Source: Cronobacter universalis NCTC 9529 (GTDB lineage: Bacteria; Pseudomonadota; Gammaproteobacteria; Enterobacterales; Enterobacteriaceae). From it: a DNA stretch of 64,000 nt. The stretch is from positions 1,302,001 to 1,366,000 of the forward strand of contig NZ_CP012257.1 in NCBI RefSeq assembly GCF_001277175.1. Reading direction: 5' to 3'. A model generated the notes under the pieces. It did not search any database. It had not been told where the DNA came from and saw nothing but the letters and a program-made list of their open reading frames with translations. The position numbers were made by a program, and so were the translations under genes. Shown in pieces: positions 7,127 through 33,490 of this stretch (the first letter of the stretch is position 1; each line of letters begins with the position of its first letter).

Positions 7127-7287
7127 AAGAAGAATAACCTCTTGAATCTAAATGTGATGGTGCTGGCATAACGCCCACAGATAGGGCAATCATAGCAGAA
7201 CAAAAGAGGGTGCGGAAACGGTATCAGGCGCCGGGTGCACTCTCTGCTACATTGCCCCGTCCTTTTGGGTAAAATTCAGACCAGACC

Positions 7288-26769: not shown

Positions 26770-27426
26770 GTGCAGCGAGCCCGTTGTTATCTGTTAGGCG
26801 AAAGCGCCGTGGTACTGGAGCTGGAGCCGCCCGTCACGCTTGCCAGCCAGCAGCGCATCTGGGGGCTGGTGCAGCGTCTCGCGGACGTGCCCGCCGTGGT
26901 GGAAGTCATTCCCGGCATGAATAACATTACCGTGATGCTGCGCGAGCCGGGCACGATGGCGCTGGACGCTATCGAGCGGCTGCAACGCTGGTGGGAGGAG
27001 AGCGAGGCGATCGTTCCCGACGCGCGGCGCATCGAGATCCCGGTGGTGTACGGCGGAGAAGGCGGGCCGGATCTCGGGGTGGTGGCGAACCATGCCGAAC
27101 TCAGTGAAAAGCAGGTGGTGGAGATGCACGCGCAGGTCGATTACGTGGTCTATTTCATCGGCTTTCAGCCGGGCTTTCCGTATCTCGGCGGGCTCGCGCC
27201 TGAGCTTGCCACGCCGCGCCGCGCGGAGCCGCGTCTTCAGGTGTCCGCAGGATCGGTCGGCATCGGCGGCAGCCAGACCGGCATCTATCCGCTGCCCACG
27301 CCCGGCGGCTGGCAGATTATCGGCCATACGCCGCTTGCGCTGTTTGATCCGCGCAATAACCCGCCGGGCCTGCTCGCGCCGGGCGACACCGTGCGCTTTG
27401 TGCCGCAAAAGGAGGGCGTATGCTGA
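26770..27426 (+). CDS. pxpB: 5-oxoprolinase subunit PxpB (YbgJ, KipI family)
   Basis: 218 residues, the E. coli length, starting at GTG 26770 behind GAGGAAA. KipI/AHS1 features: [26 protein letters not shown] and a [21 protein letters not shown] segment. PxpA, PxpB and PxpC together form the widespread prokaryotic ATP-dependent 5-oxoprolinase, which opens 5-oxo-L-proline to L-glutamate. It overlaps pxpC by 7 bases. Confidence 0.95.
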
Positions 27427-28352
27427 AGATCATTCGCGCGGGCATCCACGCCACCATTCAGGATGGCGGCCGTTTCGGACTACGCCAGTACGGTGTGAGC
27501 CAGTGCGGCGCGCTGGATGGCCCGTCGCTGCACATCGCCAACCTGCTGGTGGGCAACGACCCTGATGCGGCGGCGCTGGAGATAACGCTCGGCCAGTGCG
27601 TGGTGGAGTTCACCGAAGACACCTGGTTTGCGCTCACCGGCGCGGGCTGCGATGCGACGCTTGATGAGCGCGCCGTCTGGACCGGCTGGCGTCTGCTCGC
27701 CCGCGCGGGCCAGCGCCTGAGCCTGAAGCTGCCGCGCCGCGGTATGCGCAGCTACCTGGCGCTGGCGGGCGGTTTCGACGTGCCGGAAGTGATGGGCTCG
27801 CGCAGTACCGATGTGAAAGCGGGCGTCGGCGGTTTTGAAGGGCGGCTCCTGCGCGACGGCGATGAACTGCCCGTCAATCCGCCCACGCGTCATTTCCGCG
27901 AGGCGCGCGGCGTGAAGCAACTGCTGTGGGGCAACCGCATTCGCGCGCTGCCGGGACCGGAATATCACGAATTCAGCCACGCGGCGAAAGAAGCCTTCTG
28001 GCGCACGCCGTGGCAGTTGAGCCCGCAGAGTAACCGCATGGGCTACCGGCTGCACGGCCACATGCTGGAGCGCACCACCGAACGCGATTTACTCTCCCAC
28101 GGCCTGCTGCCGGGCGTGGTGCAGGTGCCGCACGGCGGACAGCCTATCGTGCTGATGAATGACGCCCAGACCACCGGCGGCTATCCGCGCATCGCGTGCG
28201 TGATCGACGCCGATCGCTACAACCTCGCGCAGCTGCGCCTGGGCGAGCCGATTCACTTCGTGCAGTGCTCCATCGAAGAGGCGCTGCAGGCGCGCAGCGA
28301 CCGGGCGCGTTACCTTCAACAACTGGCATGGCGGCTTAACGATGAAGATTGA
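27420..28352 (+). CDS. pxpC: 5-oxoprolinase subunit PxpC (YbgK, KipA family)
   Basis: 310 residues, the E. coli length. AHS2/KipA domain related to carboxyltransferase regions of urea amidolyase: [20 protein letters not shown] near the N-terminus and [30 protein letters not shown] in the second half. Overlaps with pxpB (7 bases) and pxpA (11 bases) indicate tight translational coupling of the enzyme complex. Confidence 0.95.
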
Positions 28353-29076
28353 TCTTAACGCCGATCTCGGCGAAGGCTGCGGCAACGACGCGCAACTGAT
28401 GCCGCTGATTAGCTCCGCCAACATCGCCTGCGGCTTCCATGCGGGCGATGCCCGGACGATGCGCGAGAGCGTGCGGCTGGCGCTGGCGCACGGCGTGGCG
28501 ATTGGCGCGCATCCGGGGTTCGCGGATCGTGAAAACTTCGGGCGCACGGCGATGCAGCTGCCGCCGGAGACGATTTACGCCGAGACGCTCTATCAGATCG
28601 GCGCGCTCGCCGCTATCGCACAGGCCGAGGGCGGCAGGCTGGCGCATGTGAAACCGCACGGCATGCTCTATAACCAGGCGGCGAGAGACGCGGCGCTCGC
28701 CGACGCTATCGCGCAGGCGGTAAAGGATGTTGACGCGTCGCTGATCCTGGTGGGGCTGGCGGGCAGCGAACTGATTCGCGCGGGCGCGCGTTATCAGCTC
28801 GCCACGCGCGAAGAGGTCTTCGCCGATCGCGGTTATCTGGCCGACGGCGCGCTGGTGCCGCGCAGCGAGCCGGGCGCGTTGATTGAAGACGACGACGAAG
28901 CGGTCTCGCGCACGCTGATGATGGTGCAGGAAGGGCGGGTGCGCAGCCGCGACGGCGCGTGGGCGGCGGTGAATGCCCAGACGGTCTGCCTGCATGGCGA
29001 CGGCGCGCACGCGCTGGCGTTCGCGCGCCGGTTACGCGAGGCGTTCGACGCGCGCCAGATTCAGGTCAGCGCGTAA
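28342..29076 (+). CDS. pxpA: 5-oxoprolinase subunit PxpA (YbgL, LamB/YcsF family)
   Basis: 244 residues, the E. coli length. [43 protein letters not shown] and VKPHGMLYN are the LamB/YcsF signature blocks that line the active site. It is the third subunit of the 5-oxoprolinase and the last gene of the plus-strand operon here. The next gene converges with only one base between the stops. In E. coli nei follows directly; here a four-gene block intervenes. Confidence 0.95.
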
Positions 29077-29077
29077 C

Positions 29078-29626
29078 TCAGAGCGATGCCGCCGCCCGCG
29101 CGGCGGTGTCGTAAAGCGAGGCGATGGTGCGCAGCAGTTGCGCCGTTTCGCCAATCGCCGCGCCCGGTATGCCGCTCTCGACCTGAATCGCGATAAGACA
29201 CGCTTCGCGCACGTCGCGGTATTTCATACACAGCGCTTTGCCTTCATCCGTCGTCGAGAAATAGAGCTCTTTACCCACCTTTTCACTGGTCACATAGCCC
29301 GCTTTCACCAGCTTTTTCAGCGCGTAGGTCACGATGTGCGTATCTTCCACGTTAAGCACAAAGCAGATATCCGCGAGTTTTTTCTTGCGGTTGCGGTGGT
29401 TAACGTGATGCAACAGCGAGACGTCAAACGCGCCCATATCCGGCTCGCCCGCCGCCGTCATGCAGCGCACCATCCATTTGTTAAACGCGTTGCCGGTCAT
29501 AATAAGCGCGTACTCCAGCTCCGAGAGTTCCGCGCAACGCTCCGACACCAGATGACGGGACGACACAATGCGCCCGTCAGCAATATCGTCGTTATCACTT
29601 GATACAACAGCTTTTTTACGGCTCAT
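29078..29626 (-). CDS. MarR-like winged-helix transcriptional regulator
   Basis: 182 residues. The central part (about 75-140) has a winged helix: LADICFVLNVEDTHIVTYAL as the helix-turn-helix, LKKLVKAGYVTSEKVGKELY as recognition helix end plus wing, and FSTTDEGKALCMKYRDVRE as the final dimerisation helix. The N-terminal helix carries SELEYALIMTGNAFNKWMVRC. The gene is divergent from the DUF969-DUF979-DUF2891 operon, the classic arrangement for a local regulator. It is absent from E. coli K-12 at this locus. Ligand unknown; a metabolite of the adjacent pathway is a reasonable guess. Confidence 0.75.
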   Translation of the reverse strand: MSRKKAVVSSDNDDIADGRIVSSRHLVSERCAELSELEYALIMTGNAFNKWMVRCMTAAGEPDMGAFDVSLLHHVNHRNRKKKLADICFVLNVEDTHIVTYALKKLVKAGYVTSEKVGKELYFSTTDEGKALCMKYRDVREACLIAIQVESGIPGAAIGETAQLLRTIASLYDTAARAAASL

Positions 29627-29871
29627 GGCGTCCCTTACTCTCCTGTGGGTATTGGTAAAAACTATAAAACGTCACCGACAAAATAAAAACATTTTATTGA
29701 TAAATTGTTTACATACTATGACTGTTCAGATATAGCTTTTTGGTCAGGTTCTGCACGTTCACAGCGCCTCTCACACAACAACGTTCGCCGCAATGCCCAC
29801 GCTTCGCCACCCGGCGAAGGAGCAGAATAGCCTTCGGCGTGCAACGCTCACTTTGGAAAGGGTAACAATGT
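29627..29871. promoter_or_regulatory. Divergent promoter region of the regulator and the DUF969 operon
   Basis: A 245-base gap. The left part is strongly AT-rich and contains a perfect inverted repeat (29682-29698). The right part is GC-richer leader sequence, with the ribosome-binding site GGAAAGGG at 29855-29862 before the DUF969 start. Confidence 0.55.
29682..29698. promoter_or_regulatory. Candidate operator of the local regulator
   Basis: Perfect 7-3-7 inverted repeat (AATAAAA, ACA, TTTTATT) placed between the divergent genes, the size expected for a MarR-type dimer. Identity as the binding site is inference. Confidence 0.4.
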
Positions 29872-30594
29872 ATGGACGGTTCCTCTCTGTTGCCGCTCAT
29901 CGGTATTCCGGTGGTGGTTATCGGTTTCGCGCTGCGCTTTAACCCGCTGCTGGTGGTGGTGGTTGCCGGGCTGACGACCGGGCTCACGGTCGGCATGGAT
30001 TTCGGCATGCTGCTGGAAACCTTCGGCGAAAAGTTCGTTAACAGCCGCTCGCTCGCGACTTTCATTCTGATCCTGCCGGTCATTGGCCTGCTGGAGTATT
30101 ACGGCCTGAAAGAGCGCGCCCAGGCGTGGGTGGCGAAAATCGCCAGCGCCACCTCGGCGCGTATTCTGATGCTCTATTTCGTGGTGCGCGAAGGCACCGC
30201 GGCGCTCGGGCTGATGTCGCTTGGCGGCCACGCCCAGACCGTGCGCCCGCTGCTCGCGCCGATGGCTGAAGGCGCGGCGCTCAATGAATATGGCGAGCTG
30301 CCTGCGCACATCCGCGACAAAATCAAAGCCCACGCCGCCGCCTGCGACAATATCGCGGTGTTTTTTGGCGAAGATATTTTCATCGCTTTCGGCGCGGTGC
30401 TGCTGATTGACGCGTTCCTGAAAGAGAACGGCATTCCCGGCATCGAGCCGCTGCATATCGGCCTGTGGGCCATTCCGACCGCGATTGCGGCGCTGATTAT
30501 TCATATGGCGCGCTTGCTGCGCTTAGACGCCAGCATTCGCCGCGAGGTGCTGGCCTGGCGCGCGGAGCAGGGCAACCAGGAGGCCGTGCAATGA
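29872..30594 (+). CDS. DUF969 membrane protein, candidate permease subunit
   Basis: 240 residues with about six or seven hydrophobic helices (LLPLIGIPVVVIGFALRF, NPLLVVVVAGLTTGLTVGMD, LATFILILPVIGLLEYY and others). Recognised as DUF969, which in many bacteria is paired with DUF979 and has an ion-transporter-like layout. It is followed by DUF979 with an ATGA overlap, so the two proteins are made together and probably form one transporter. The cluster lies next to 5-oxoprolinase, which suggests 5-oxoproline or a related acid as substrate (inference). Confidence 0.78.
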   Translation: MDGSSLLPLIGIPVVVIGFALRFNPLLVVVVAGLTTGLTVGMDFGMLLETFGEKFVNSRSLATFILILPVIGLLEYYGLKERAQAWVAKIASATSARILMLYFVVREGTAALGLMSLGGHAQTVRPLLAPMAEGAALNEYGELPAHIRDKIKAHAAACDNIAVFFGEDIFIAFGAVLLIDAFLKENGIPGIEPLHIGLWAIPTAIAALIIHMARLLRLDASIRREVLAWRAEQGNQEAVQ

Positions 30595-31577
30595 GTACGT
30601 TGCTGACCATCAACCGCGTCTACTACCTGATCGGCTTTATCGTCATGCTGCTGGTGGTGATGACGCTTCGCGATCGCGGTAATCCGAAACGCTTCACTAC
30701 CGCGCTGTTCTGGTTCCTGTTCGGCGGGATTTTTCTCTTCGGCGATCTGCTGGTGCAGGAGCTGGGCCGTTCGCTGGCCTACCGCATTATCGGCGGCGCG
30801 GTGATTGTCATCGCCCTGCTGGCGGGCTTCGGGCTGGTCGGGAAGGGGCACTATAAAATGTCCACCGAGGAGGAGCGCGAGGCGTCGTCCCGGCGTCTGG
30901 GCAACTGGCTGTTTCTGCCGGCGCTGCTGATCCCGGTGGTGACGGTGATTGGCACGCTGTTTTTAAAAGGCGTCTCGTTGGGCGGCGTGTTCCTGCTGGA
31001 TCAAAAACAGCTGACGCTCGCGGCGCTGTGCGTGGCGTGTATCGCGGCGCTGCTGGTGGGCTGGTGGCTCACGCGCGGCACGCCGCTGCATGCGATTCGC
31101 CAGTCGCGCCGCCTGGTGGATACCATCGGCTGGGCGGTGATTTTGCCGCAGATGCTGGCGATGCTCGGCGGGGTGTTTGTCGCCGCCGATACCGGCACGG
31201 CGGTGCAGCGCGTGGTGAGCCTGTTTGTCGACCCGGAAAACCGCTTCATGCTGGTGGTTATCTACTGCATCGGCATGGCGCTGTTCACGATGATTATGGG
31301 TAACGCGTTTGCGGCGTTCCCGGTGCTGAGCGCGGGCATCGCGCTGCCGCTGCTGATTAATCATCACCACGGCGACCCGGCGCCGCTGCTGGCCATCGGC
31401 ATGTACGCGGGCTACTGCGGCACGCTGATGACGCCGATGGCGGCGAATTTTAATATCGTTCCCGCCGCCCTGCTGGAGCTGAAAGACAAATATCAGGTGA
31501 TAAAAATTCAGATCCCGACGGCGCTGACGCTGCTGGTGGTGAACGTTTTCCTGATGTATTTCATCGTATTCCGCTAA
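30591..31577 (+). CDS. DUF979 membrane protein, candidate permease subunit
   Basis: 328 residues, using the ATG at 30591 that overlaps the DUF969 stop (ATGA). About nine or ten membrane helices. Conserved-looking loops include TIGWAVILPQMLAMLGGVF, MIMGNAFAAFPVLSAGI and YAGYCGTLMTPMAANFNIVP, the last resembling re-entrant substrate-binding loops of ion-transporter-type carriers. Always seen with DUF969 in my recall. Likely the core translocation subunit of the pair. Confidence 0.78.
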   Translation: MSTLLTINRVYYLIGFIVMLLVVMTLRDRGNPKRFTTALFWFLFGGIFLFGDLLVQELGRSLAYRIIGGAVIVIALLAGFGLVGKGHYKMSTEEEREASSRRLGNWLFLPALLIPVVTVIGTLFLKGVSLGGVFLLDQKQLTLAALCVACIAALLVGWWLTRGTPLHAIRQSRRLVDTIGWAVILPQMLAMLGGVFVAADTGTAVQRVVSLFVDPENRFMLVVIYCIGMALFTMIMGNAFAAFPVLSAGIALPLLINHHHGDPAPLLAIGMYAGYCGTLMTPMAANFNIVPAALLELKDKYQVIKIQIPTALTLLVVNVFLMYFIVFR

Positions 31578-31596
31578 GGCCCACTAAGGAGCTGTT

Positions 31597-32592
31597 ATGA
31601 CGTTGACACAACCCCAGGCCGACGCCTTTGCCCGGATGCCCCTGACCTATCTGCGCCAGGAGTATCCGAACCATATCATGCATCTGATGAATGATGACGC
31701 CGACGCGCTGCCGCCGCGCGAACTGCACCCGATTTTCTACGGCTGCTTTGACTGGCATTCGGCGGTGCACGGTTACTGGCTGCTGCTGCGCTGCTTGCGC
31801 CGCTACCCGACGCTGTCGTGCCGCGAAGAGATCATCGCGCTGTTCGATGAACACATCACGCCTGCGAATGTGGCGCGTGAAGTGGATTACTTTACCGCGC
31901 CGTTCCGCGCCTCGTTCGAGCGCCCGTATGGCTACGGCTGGCTGCTGGCGCTCGCCCAGGAGCTGAAAGCGTCAGACCTGCCGCAGGCTGCGCGCTGGCA
32001 CGAGACGCTGGCGCCGCTGACCCAGGATATCCGCGCGCGCCTTATCGATTACCTCTGCAAGCTGACCTACCCGATTCGCGTCGGCACCCATTACAACACG
32101 GCGTTTGCGCTCGCCCTCGGTCTGGATTACGCCCGCGCGCTTGGTGATGAGACGCTTGAGCGCGCCATCACTGACGCGACGACGCGCTTTTATCAGGCCG
32201 ACACCGACTACCCGGCGCACTACGAGCCGGGCGGCGATGAGTATCTCTCCGGCGCGCTCACCGAAGCGCTGCTGATGAGTAAAACGGCGGCGCATTTCCC
32301 GGCGTGGTTTGACGCGTATCTGCCGGATATCAACGACGTGGCGGCGCTGATGCACCCGGCGGTAGTGAGCGATCGCGCCGACCCGAAAATCGCCCACCTC
32401 GACGGGCTTAACTTAAGCCGCGCCTGGTGTATGAAGCATATCGCCGCGGCGCTCCCTGAAGATCACCGCGCGCAGCCAGCGCTGCAGGAGGCGGTGCAAC
32501 GTCATCTTGCGGCAAGCGTTGAGCATGTGGTCGGCAGCCACTACAGCGGCGGCCACTGGCTGGCGAGCTTCGCGCTGCTGGCGCTGGAGTAA
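31597..32592 (+). CDS. DUF2891 protein, putative cytoplasmic enzyme
   Basis: 331 residues, no signal peptide or membrane helix. It starts 19 bases after DUF979 behind AAGGAG. The sequence has an all-helical look with conserved polar blocks HPIFYGCFDWHSAVHGYW, RVGTHYNTAFALALGLDYA, EPGGDEYLSG and GSHYSGGHWLASFALLAL. The paired His/Trp/Asp blocks resemble an alpha/alpha-barrel active site. I recognise it as DUF2891, which has no assigned reaction. Its operon position suggests it acts on the compound imported by DUF969/DUF979. Confidence 0.75.
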   Translation: MTLTQPQADAFARMPLTYLRQEYPNHIMHLMNDDADALPPRELHPIFYGCFDWHSAVHGYWLLLRCLRRYPTLSCREEIIALFDEHITPANVAREVDYFTAPFRASFERPYGYGWLLALAQELKASDLPQAARWHETLAPLTQDIRARLIDYLCKLTYPIRVGTHYNTAFALALGLDYARALGDETLERAITDATTRFYQADTDYPAHYEPGGDEYLSGALTEALLMSKTAAHFPAWFDAYLPDINDVAALMHPAVVSDRADPKIAHLDGLNLSRAWCMKHIAAALPEDHRAQPALQEAVQRHLAASVEHVVGSHYSGGHWLASFALLALE

Positions 32593-32598
32593 ACCGTT

Positions 32599-32630
32599 AA
32601 CCGCCGCTTTTTTGCGGCGGTTGTCTTTTT
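32599..32630 (+). terminator. Terminator of the DUF969-DUF979-DUF2891 operon
   Basis: AACCGCCGC / GCGGCGGTT stem with a T-rich loop, followed by GTCTTTTT. Confidence 0.8.
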
Positions 32631-32698: not shown

Positions 32699-33490
32699 AT
32701 GCCGGAAGGACCGGAGATCCGCCGCGCGGCGGACAAGCTTGAAGCGGCGGTGGCGGGCAAACCGCTGACCCACGTCTGGTTTGCGTTTCCTGAATTAAAA
32801 CCGTTTGAAGCGCAGCTGACCGGCGCGCGGGTGGAGCGATTCGAAACCCGCGGCAAAGCGCTGTTGACGCATTTTTCCTGTGGGCTGACGCTCTACAGCC
32901 ACAATCAGCTGTATGGCGTCTGGCGCGTGGTGAAAGCGGGTGAAACGCCGCAGACCACGCGAAGCCTGCGCGTGCGGCTCGAAACCGAAGACGCCGCGGT
33001 GCTGCTTTACAGCGCCTCGGAAATCGAGATGCTGGATGCAGACGGCATGGCGGCGCACGCGTTTTTGCAGCGCGTCGGGCCGGACGTGCTGGATATGTCG
33101 CTGACGGTGGAGCAGGTGAAGGAGCGTCTGTTAAGCCCGCGCTTTCATCGCCGTCAGTTCAGCGGGCTGCTGCTGGACCAGGCGTTTCTCGCGGGGCTTG
33201 GCAATTATTTGCGTGTGGAGATCCTCTGGCAGGCGCAGCTTGCGCCGCGCCACAAGGCAATAGAGCTGAATAATACGCAGCTTGATGCGCTGGCCCGCGC
33301 ATGTCTTGAGATCCCGCGGCTCTCATACCAGACGCGCGGGACGGTGGATGAGAATAAGCATCACGGCGCGCTGTTTCGCTTCGAGGTGTTTCACCGCGCC
33401 GGGAAGAAATGCCGCCGCTGCGGGGGAATTATCGAGAAGACGACGCTGTCGTCGCGGCCATTTTACTGGTGTCCGGGGTGTCAGGCGTAG
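32699..33490 (+). CDS. nei: Endonuclease VIII (Nei)
   Basis: 263 residues, the E. coli length. It starts [14 protein letters not shown]: after Met removal the Pro is the catalytic nucleophile and the Glu pair follows. A helix-two-turn-helix lies near [20 protein letters not shown], and the C-terminal zinc finger has four Cys (CRRCGG and CPGC). It is a DNA glycosylase/AP lyase for oxidised pyrimidines. Own promoter likely; the ribosome-binding site AAAAGGA is 8 bases upstream. Confidence 0.96.

Follow-up and report, generated by a model that had tools for sequence, protein, structure and literature searches.

A candidate inducible 5-oxoproline acquisition operon beside the 5-oxoprolinase genes of Cronobacter universalis

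Introduction

The DNA analysed here, referred to as the window, is a stretch of 64,000 nucleotides from Cronobacter universalis NCTC 9529 (contig NZ_CP012257.1, positions 1,302,001 to 1,366,000), a genus assignment with which the nearest proteins agree (96%, C. turicensis), and the locus in question lies at positions 29078 to 32592 of the window, where a winged-helix regulator and the proteins DUF969, DUF979 and DUF2891 are encoded beside the 5-oxoprolinase genes pxpBCA. The locus is probably an inducible 5-oxoproline acquisition operon that consists of a switch, a two-part carrier and a helper enzyme, a reading to which we assign a probability of about 0.7. This value, and the much lower one given to a more specific reading of DUF2891 below, are held down because the cases of DUF2891 export are few and an operator-like site is missing at some regulator loci. 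Glutamine and glutamate spontaneously give rise to 5-oxoproline, which can serve as a source of carbon and nitrogen and whose ring PxpABC opens to glutamate with ATP. To our knowledge, the bacterial uptake and control of 5-oxoproline have been little studied.

The idea that DUF969 and DUF979 form a 5-oxoproline carrier is already in print, and the window locus is a well-supported example of this proposed system. Niehaus 2017, a work known through the papers that cite it, reportedly suggested such a carrier. The accessible part of a 2024 structural paper places DUF979 in an ion-transporter clan as a single repeat, features a confident two-protein model of DUF969-DUF979 built with C. difficile proteins, bases the claim that the two are halves on structures, and suggests 5-oxoproline transport for the pair with reference to Niehaus 2017 (PMC11467057). 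That part deals with the same two families as the window and makes no mention of a regulator, DUF2891, Pcp or an OPLAH-type enzyme. Preliminary genetics from January 2026, as given in the accessible part of the report, found that a C. jejuni mutant without cj0552-cj0554, genes that belong to the three families and stand in the order seen here, lost growth on 5-oxoproline as nitrogen source (PMC12795558); this report, too, cites Niehaus 2017. The statement in the first-pass annotation that none of the three families has a proven function was therefore nearly right, but it overlooked the carrier suggestions of 2017 and 2024 and these preliminary genetics.

The features that look new are the HTH_27 regulator with its operator-like site, the link to OPLAH-type enzymes, and two features of DUF2891, its alternation with Pcp and its apparent placement on either side of the membrane. 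No account of the OPLAH link or of the alternation and placement of DUF2891 was found in the literature searched, and Niehaus 2017 may contain some of the neighbourhoods. The analysis ties DUF969-DUF979 to 5-oxoproline metabolism via two unrelated 5-oxoprolinase types. For DUF2891, a family with a crystal structure but no function, it narrows the substrates to a class that can be tested, and it identifies a regulator that is a candidate for responding to 5-oxoproline, together with its site.

The proposed carrier pair and its association with two 5-oxoprolinases

DUF969 (29872 to 30594, plus strand; PF06149, 290.8 bits with a cut-off of 32) and DUF979 (30591 to 31577, plus strand; PF06166, 411.2 bits with a cut-off of 26) are membrane proteins that would form the two halves of one secondary carrier importing 5-oxoproline or a small pyroglutamyl compound, and PxpABC would then convert the imported 5-oxoproline to glutamate. 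The AlphaFold2 (AF2) model of DUF979 has a predicted local distance difference test score (pLDDT) of 84.1, and carriers of the TRAP, Pho90, ArsB or DASS type account for nine of its ten best rows in VIA-align.

The association of these families with 5-oxoprolinases was surveyed in one and the same draw of 299 Pseudomonadota genomes, including that of the window (G000; G and L numbers denote surveyed genomes and loci). DUF979 was found above its cut-off in 36 genomes (37 loci), DUF2891 in 36, PxpA in 124, Pcp in 52, of which 46 were kept, the Hydantoinase_B domain PF02538 in 127 at E 1e-100, and the regulator as 29 strong loci in 29 genomes. The rows left out were nine weak regulator rows (E 7e-13 to 4e-18, 27-31% identity), three weak DUF979 rows, seven weak Pcp rows (E 8.7e-6 or more) and two PxpA fragments. 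Genes in the fetched loci were called by a codon-usage script, and some open reading frames (ORFs) were missed or called overlong in GC-rich DNA.

PxpA or PF02538 is present in 35 of the 36 DUF979 genomes compared with 206 of 299 in the background, and the same 35 of 36 was obtained for DUF2891 (p about 1e-5 to 2e-5 over the DUF979, DUF2891 and regulator comparisons; like the other co-occurrence p values, these ignore relatedness among genomes). A lack of co-occurrence with 5-oxoproline or pyroglutamyl genes would have refuted the proposal of the first-pass annotation, and these counts show the opposite. The survey additionally revealed that the distance from DUF979 to PxpA is at most 8 kb at 13 of 37 loci, and that to PF02538 at six. 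Of the 13 DUF979 genomes without PxpA, 12 carry PF02538, in every case within an ORF of about 1,190-1,255 amino acids, and across the DUF979, DUF2891 or regulator genomes without PxpA the PF02538 match lies within an ORF of about 1,190-1,335 residues. Fused PF02538 ORFs of about 1,200 amino acids are taken here, from knowledge of the family, to be OPLAH-type 5-oxoprolinases. In laboratory Caulobacter vibrioides, searches with each family gave matches to DUF969, DUF979, DUF2891 and PF02538 and none to PxpA or Pcp. The link of DUF969-DUF979 to this substrate class is stronger than it would be with PxpABC alone, because two unrelated 5-oxoprolinases have the same partner. The proposal that DUF969-DUF979 carries 5-oxoproline or a similar compound is thus supported by co-occurrence, by adjacency at some loci, by the use of Pcp as an alternative third gene, and by the C. 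jejuni mutant.

The regulator and its operator-like site

The regulator is encoded at 29078 to 29626 on the minus strand, divergent to DUF969, and matches the winged-helix family HTH_27 (PF13463) with 77.5 bits (cut-off 22.2). At E 0.001 it matches HTH_27, DUF6293_C and MarR_2 only, so that it falls outside the GntR type, and its MarR_2 score of 19.9 bits is below the cut-off of 27. The description "MarR-like" in the first-pass annotation holds as a likeness but not as membership of the MarR family proper. Every one of the 29 genomes in which the regulator match is strong also encodes PxpA or a fused PF02538 (OPLAH-type) ORF, compared with the background of 206 of 299 for PxpA or PF02538. At least 20 of the 29 regulator loci have DUF979, PxpA or PF02538 no more than 8 kb away (the counts of proximity to PF02538 being lower bounds), and in many loci it is divergent to DUF969, pxpB, pxpA or the OPLAH-type gene.

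An AT-rich palindrome, TTTATYRATAAA, is common to the divergent regulator regions, and the motif was derived from 18 of them. The window features the copy TTTATTGATAAA at 29693 to 29704, inside ACATTTTATTGATAAATTGT (29689 to 29708) in the divergent promoter region, and this is the sole exact copy in the window. The regulator is predicted to bind this palindrome, which was located by comparison, and to repress the operon, and 5-oxoproline or a close derivative would release it. With up to two mismatches, the site is found upstream of the OPLAH-type gene at seven of 11 loci with the regulator, compared with none of 12 loci that lack the regulator and with 11 of the 325 other genes of regulator loci, and it is found upstream of the first pxp gene at five of seven. 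At the OPLAH loci outside the motif-deriving set the site is present in five of eight, compared with the same 11 of 325 (p 7e-6, for a test picked after the hit positions had been seen). Outside the Enterobacteriaceae, the site stands at the regulator start at nine of 18 loci with a 5-oxoproline gene (16 of 243 other starts) and at two of nine loci without one (two of 118 other starts). The DUF969 promoters at loci without the regulator have the site, again with up to two mismatches, in seven of 36; some of the genomes concerned, G268 and G270, encode the regulator elsewhere. A Poisson value for operator enrichment was set aside as circular, as the motif came from 18 of the divergent regions.

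Whole-genome scans for the exact site covered all 29 regulator genomes and 19 genomes without the regulator. G000, G226, G244, G209, G210 and G270 carry an exact copy at the promoter of a 5-oxoproline gene or of the regulator. The 6.9-Mb genome G270 has a single exact copy just before DUF969-DUF979-DUF2891, and its regulator is encoded on a different contig, next to pxpA. G244 likewise has one exact copy, which is located between the regulator and pxpA, and in G210 one of two exact copies precedes pxpB, with the regulator encoded elsewhere. Three Burkholderia loci (L132, L133, L140) also have the exact site in front of DUF969. At the level of sequence, these placements support one regulon that would span different carriers and enzymes, its site being by no means universal. 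The first-pass annotation had the regulator sensing the substrate of the carrier, which agrees with the co-occurrence and with the shared operator-like site at some promoters; the ligand remains the predicted part of that claim.

The closest described regulatory system is that of C. glutamicum, where, according to the accessible part of the report, pxpTABC and PxpR combine a carrier, PxpABC and a divergent regulator in one 5-oxoproline system and the repressor PxpR binds 5-oxoproline (PMC13274462). The C. glutamicum system uses an APC/Nramp-type carrier, PxpT, and a GntR-type regulator, whereas the window has DUF969-DUF979 and an HTH_27 regulator with a different site. Its authors state in that part that to their knowledge the bacterial regulation of 5-oxoproline metabolism had not been studied before (PMC13274462). 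The C. jejuni operon is described, in the part of its report that is accessible, as glutamine-responsive with no dedicated regulator named (PMC12795558), whereas in the window a divergent regulator and pxpBCA are adjacent. No published account of the HTH_27 regulator and its site was found in the literature searched, among the matches listed, and among the matches listed for "5-oxoprolinase" with "MarR family" no title or abstract start names such a regulator.

Two observations concern genes near regulator homologues. Parts of a TRAP carrier lie between a regulator homologue and an OPLAH-type gene (DctP, DctQ and DctM in L206; DctP in L207 and L208, by Pfam), and this is a candidate third kind of 5-oxoproline carrier. 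In L221 (G244:C1:1577000-1595000) a D-glutamate cyclase (PF07286, 11962 to 12870) is in one run with pxpA, pxpB and an Nramp-type carrier, and a regulator homologue is divergent to this run; of the 124 PxpA genomes, 45 have PF07286, and in 18 of these it is no more than 8 kb from PxpA.

The third gene and DUF2891

The gene within 3 kb of DUF979 is Pcp at 17 of the 37 loci, DUF2891 at 17, both at one and neither at two, an alternation with a Fisher p of 2e-7. The presence of one or the other enzyme at 35 of 37 loci favours a different carrier substrate, in which DUF969-DUF979 carries pyroglutamyl conjugates or small peptides and Pcp or DUF2891 frees 5-oxoproline in the cytoplasm. The placement of DUF2891 described below, with an export signal absent beside DUF969-DUF979 and present beside an Nramp-type carrier, also agrees with conjugate transport. 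The loss of growth of the C. jejuni mutant on free 5-oxoproline, in the preliminary and partly accessible report (PMC12795558), and the two loci with neither enzyme next door speak against it, and we consider it the less probable description of the carrier, possible but doubtful.

DUF2891 is encoded at 31597 to 32592 on the plus strand (PF11199, 448.6 bits, above cut-off) and is a soluble protein in which no signal peptide was seen. Both its profile score and a shared fold with Cj0554 place it in the family: the AF2 model (pLDDT 91.9) is an (alpha/alpha)6 toroid, and Cj0554 (8ieu/8iev) is a relative in the PDB with an E of 5e-73. The titles of these entries give no function, and no paper on the structure was found among the matches listed. 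The family alignment reveals an invariant set of His, Glu, Arg and Trp residues that includes His54, His58, His267 and His320. DUF2891 would be an (alpha/alpha)6 enzyme that needs no cofactor, takes the operon place held elsewhere by Pcp, and provides or prepares 5-oxoproline for 5-oxoprolinase.

The genomic contexts of DUF2891 extend beyond the DUF969-DUF979 pair. DUF969-DUF979-DUF2891 or DUF2891 alone adjoins an OPLAH-type gene in L069, L087, L088, L089, L090, L094, L187 and L191, and in L069 and L187 this occurs without DUF979. In L068, L147, L180 and L183 DUF2891 adjoins an Nramp-type carrier together with pxpABC, and in L190 the carrier alone, where the contig ends. A signal-like N-terminus, assigned with a simple hydrophobic-stretch or lipobox rule, is present in five of five DUF2891 proteins beside an Nramp-type carrier (the carrier of L068 being labelled by hand), compared with two of 29 beside DUF969/DUF979, both of which are overlong ORF calls. 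The preferred guess for DUF2891, and the weakest step of the proposed mechanism, is that it frees 5-oxoproline from a conjugate, intracellularly in the DUF969/DUF979 sets and extracellularly in the Nramp-carrier sets. In its full form this reading is tentative and has a probability well below one half: DUF2891 would be a new class of cofactor-free (alpha/alpha)6 enzyme acting on an environmental conjugate to free or form 5-oxoproline, in the cytoplasm with a conjugate-accepting DUF969-DUF979 and outside the cell with an Nramp-type carrier for 5-oxoproline only, and the previously undescribed HTH_27 regulator with its TTTATYRATAAA-like operator would control both unrelated 5-oxoprolinase types.

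Among the closest known systems are also the unsaturated glucuronyl hydrolases (GH88) and the superfamily of AGE and YihS. DUF2891 could be a two-base racemase or epimerase that converts 5-oxo-D-proline or a D-conjugate to the L form for 5-oxoprolinase, which we regard as unlikely; fold similarity reveals no chemistry, and a racemase acting on the product of D-glutamate cyclase was rejected, since DUF2891 and D-glutamate cyclase occur together in four of the 124 PxpA genomes compared with 6.9 expected and so have no positive association. An equally improbable alternative is that DUF2891 is a general (alpha/alpha)6 enzyme, perhaps sugar-acting, that is in these operons by chance. The partners that recur across distant groups in operon-like runs, namely DUF969/DUF979, OPLAH, PxpT and PxpABC, argue against this, the other neighbours being recurrences among close relatives or, within the part covered by Pfam, single cases.

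Among 50 neighbour proteins, a part of all of them, Pfam revealed no second pathway that recurs in operon-like runs. Nearby genes that do recur are MFS carriers (L071, L077, L148, L151), TctC receptors (L150, L192) and TetR genes (L135, L137). Recurrence confined to close relatives was found for the TetR-type gene of L135, which has a gene of the same length in L146, and for an unassigned ORF of 314-324 amino acids in two Bradyrhizobium (L162, L178). The single cases are an Asp/Glu/hydantoin racemase (L181), a peptidase S58 (L192), an amidohydrolase (L186) and AcnX (L138). Some of these genes overlap DUF2891 by 4 bases. The racemase does so at 7156 to 9047 of L181, which is from a Natronospirales metagenome-assembled genome, as do the peptidase S58 (L192, 6982 to 8978) and the amidohydrolase (L186, 6580 to 8990), which are possible amide-cleaving partners.

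Evidence against the proposed operon function

Several results weigh against the reading of the locus as a 5-oxoproline acquisition operon. Regarding the carrier, the C. jejuni mutant removes all three genes together, as far as the accessible part of the report describes it (PMC12795558), and hhalign, tried as a test of homology between DUF969 and DUF979, gave no signal, with a probability of 0.4% from shallow alignments with an effective number of sequences (Neff) of about 2.5-3. The 2.0-Mb genome G011 features DUF969-DUF979-Pcp (L105) with neither PxpA nor PF02538, and therefore import for 5-oxoprolinase is not the sole role of the pair. This genome also speaks for DUF969-DUF979 working by export or exchange, to dispose of 5-oxoproline that Pcp has released or that has formed spontaneously. 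Such a function is very unlikely, as a 5-oxoproline-consuming gene, by family, is present in 35 of 36 DUF979 genomes and the C. jejuni mutant fails to grow on 5-oxoproline in the partly accessible report (PMC12795558). The L105 locus itself hints at export or another substrate, and the role or direction of the carrier may differ in places.

Regarding the third gene, a tree of 52 DUF979 proteins, a quick tree with long branches, has the Pcp or DUF2891 label tracking carrier clades with only two changes. Pcp and DUF2891 are conserved alternatives, not the outcome of repeated independent exchange, and their exchange was given less weight and dropped as strong independent evidence because the tree needs only these two changes. 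DUF2891 itself is often solitary: 16 of 36 survey loci have no recognised 5-oxoproline gene in the stretch, and neither do 59 of 80 named DUF2891 loci, which are the best-scoring of 583 confirmed stretches rather than a random sample; some of the stretches in these counts are short. The export pattern amounts to about three independent Nramp-type cases, L180 and L190 being near-identical.

Regarding the regulator, only six of the 29 regulator genomes have the exact site at the promoter of a 5-oxoproline gene or of the regulator, compared with none of the 19 without the regulator (p 0.07). The whole-genome scan of G270 found no exact copy at pxpA, beside which its regulator lies, and two loci with both the regulator and pxpBCA, L081 and L128, have no site with up to two mismatches.

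Gene order in the window and related genomes

The order of genes in the window is pxpB-pxpC-pxpA, the divergent regulator, DUF969, DUF979, DUF2891 and nei. The 5-oxoprolinase subunits are encoded on the plus strand by pxpB (about 26770 to 27426, with an inferred start; TIGR00370, 306.7 bits), pxpC (27420 to 28352; NF045499, 574.3 bits) and pxpA (28342 to 29076; NF003812, 441 bits), all above the equivalog cut-offs, which bears out their earlier naming as 5-oxoprolinase genes. The nei gene (32699 to 33490) has an NCBIfam equivalog match above cut-off. All of the gene boundaries in the first-pass annotation are correct, and the coupling of DUF969 to DUF979 is confirmed as an ATGA overlap (30591 to 30594). 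DUF2891 starts 19 bases after DUF979 and has its own ribosome site, AAGGAG, ahead of its ATG. A terminator-like hairpin (32598 to 32623, plus strand) with a 10-pair stem and a T tail would close the operon ahead of nei; the region contains six terminator-like hairpins compared with 3.8 expected by shuffling, and this stem is the longest. No sigma-70 promoter was found when the region was scanned for one.

The position of the block between pxpA and nei was confirmed, and in E. coli these two genes are adjacent with 35 bases between them, as seen in the one genome inspected. The DUF969-DUF979-DUF2891 block had no blastn match in 5,426 E. coli genomes. Since pxpA is directly followed by nei in that E. 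coli genome and no match was found, the block was gained in Cronobacter or lost in E. coli. Other genomes of this bacterial family have DUF969-DUF979-Pcp (L109, G161) or Pcp alone (L117, G188) after pxpA, followed by an ORF of nei length. G161, which carries this pxpBCA-DUF969-DUF979-Pcp arrangement, additionally has a DUF2891 gene at a second site (L082, G161:C6), where genes for a PmbA/TldD-type peptidase and a thioredoxin-like protein are nearby.

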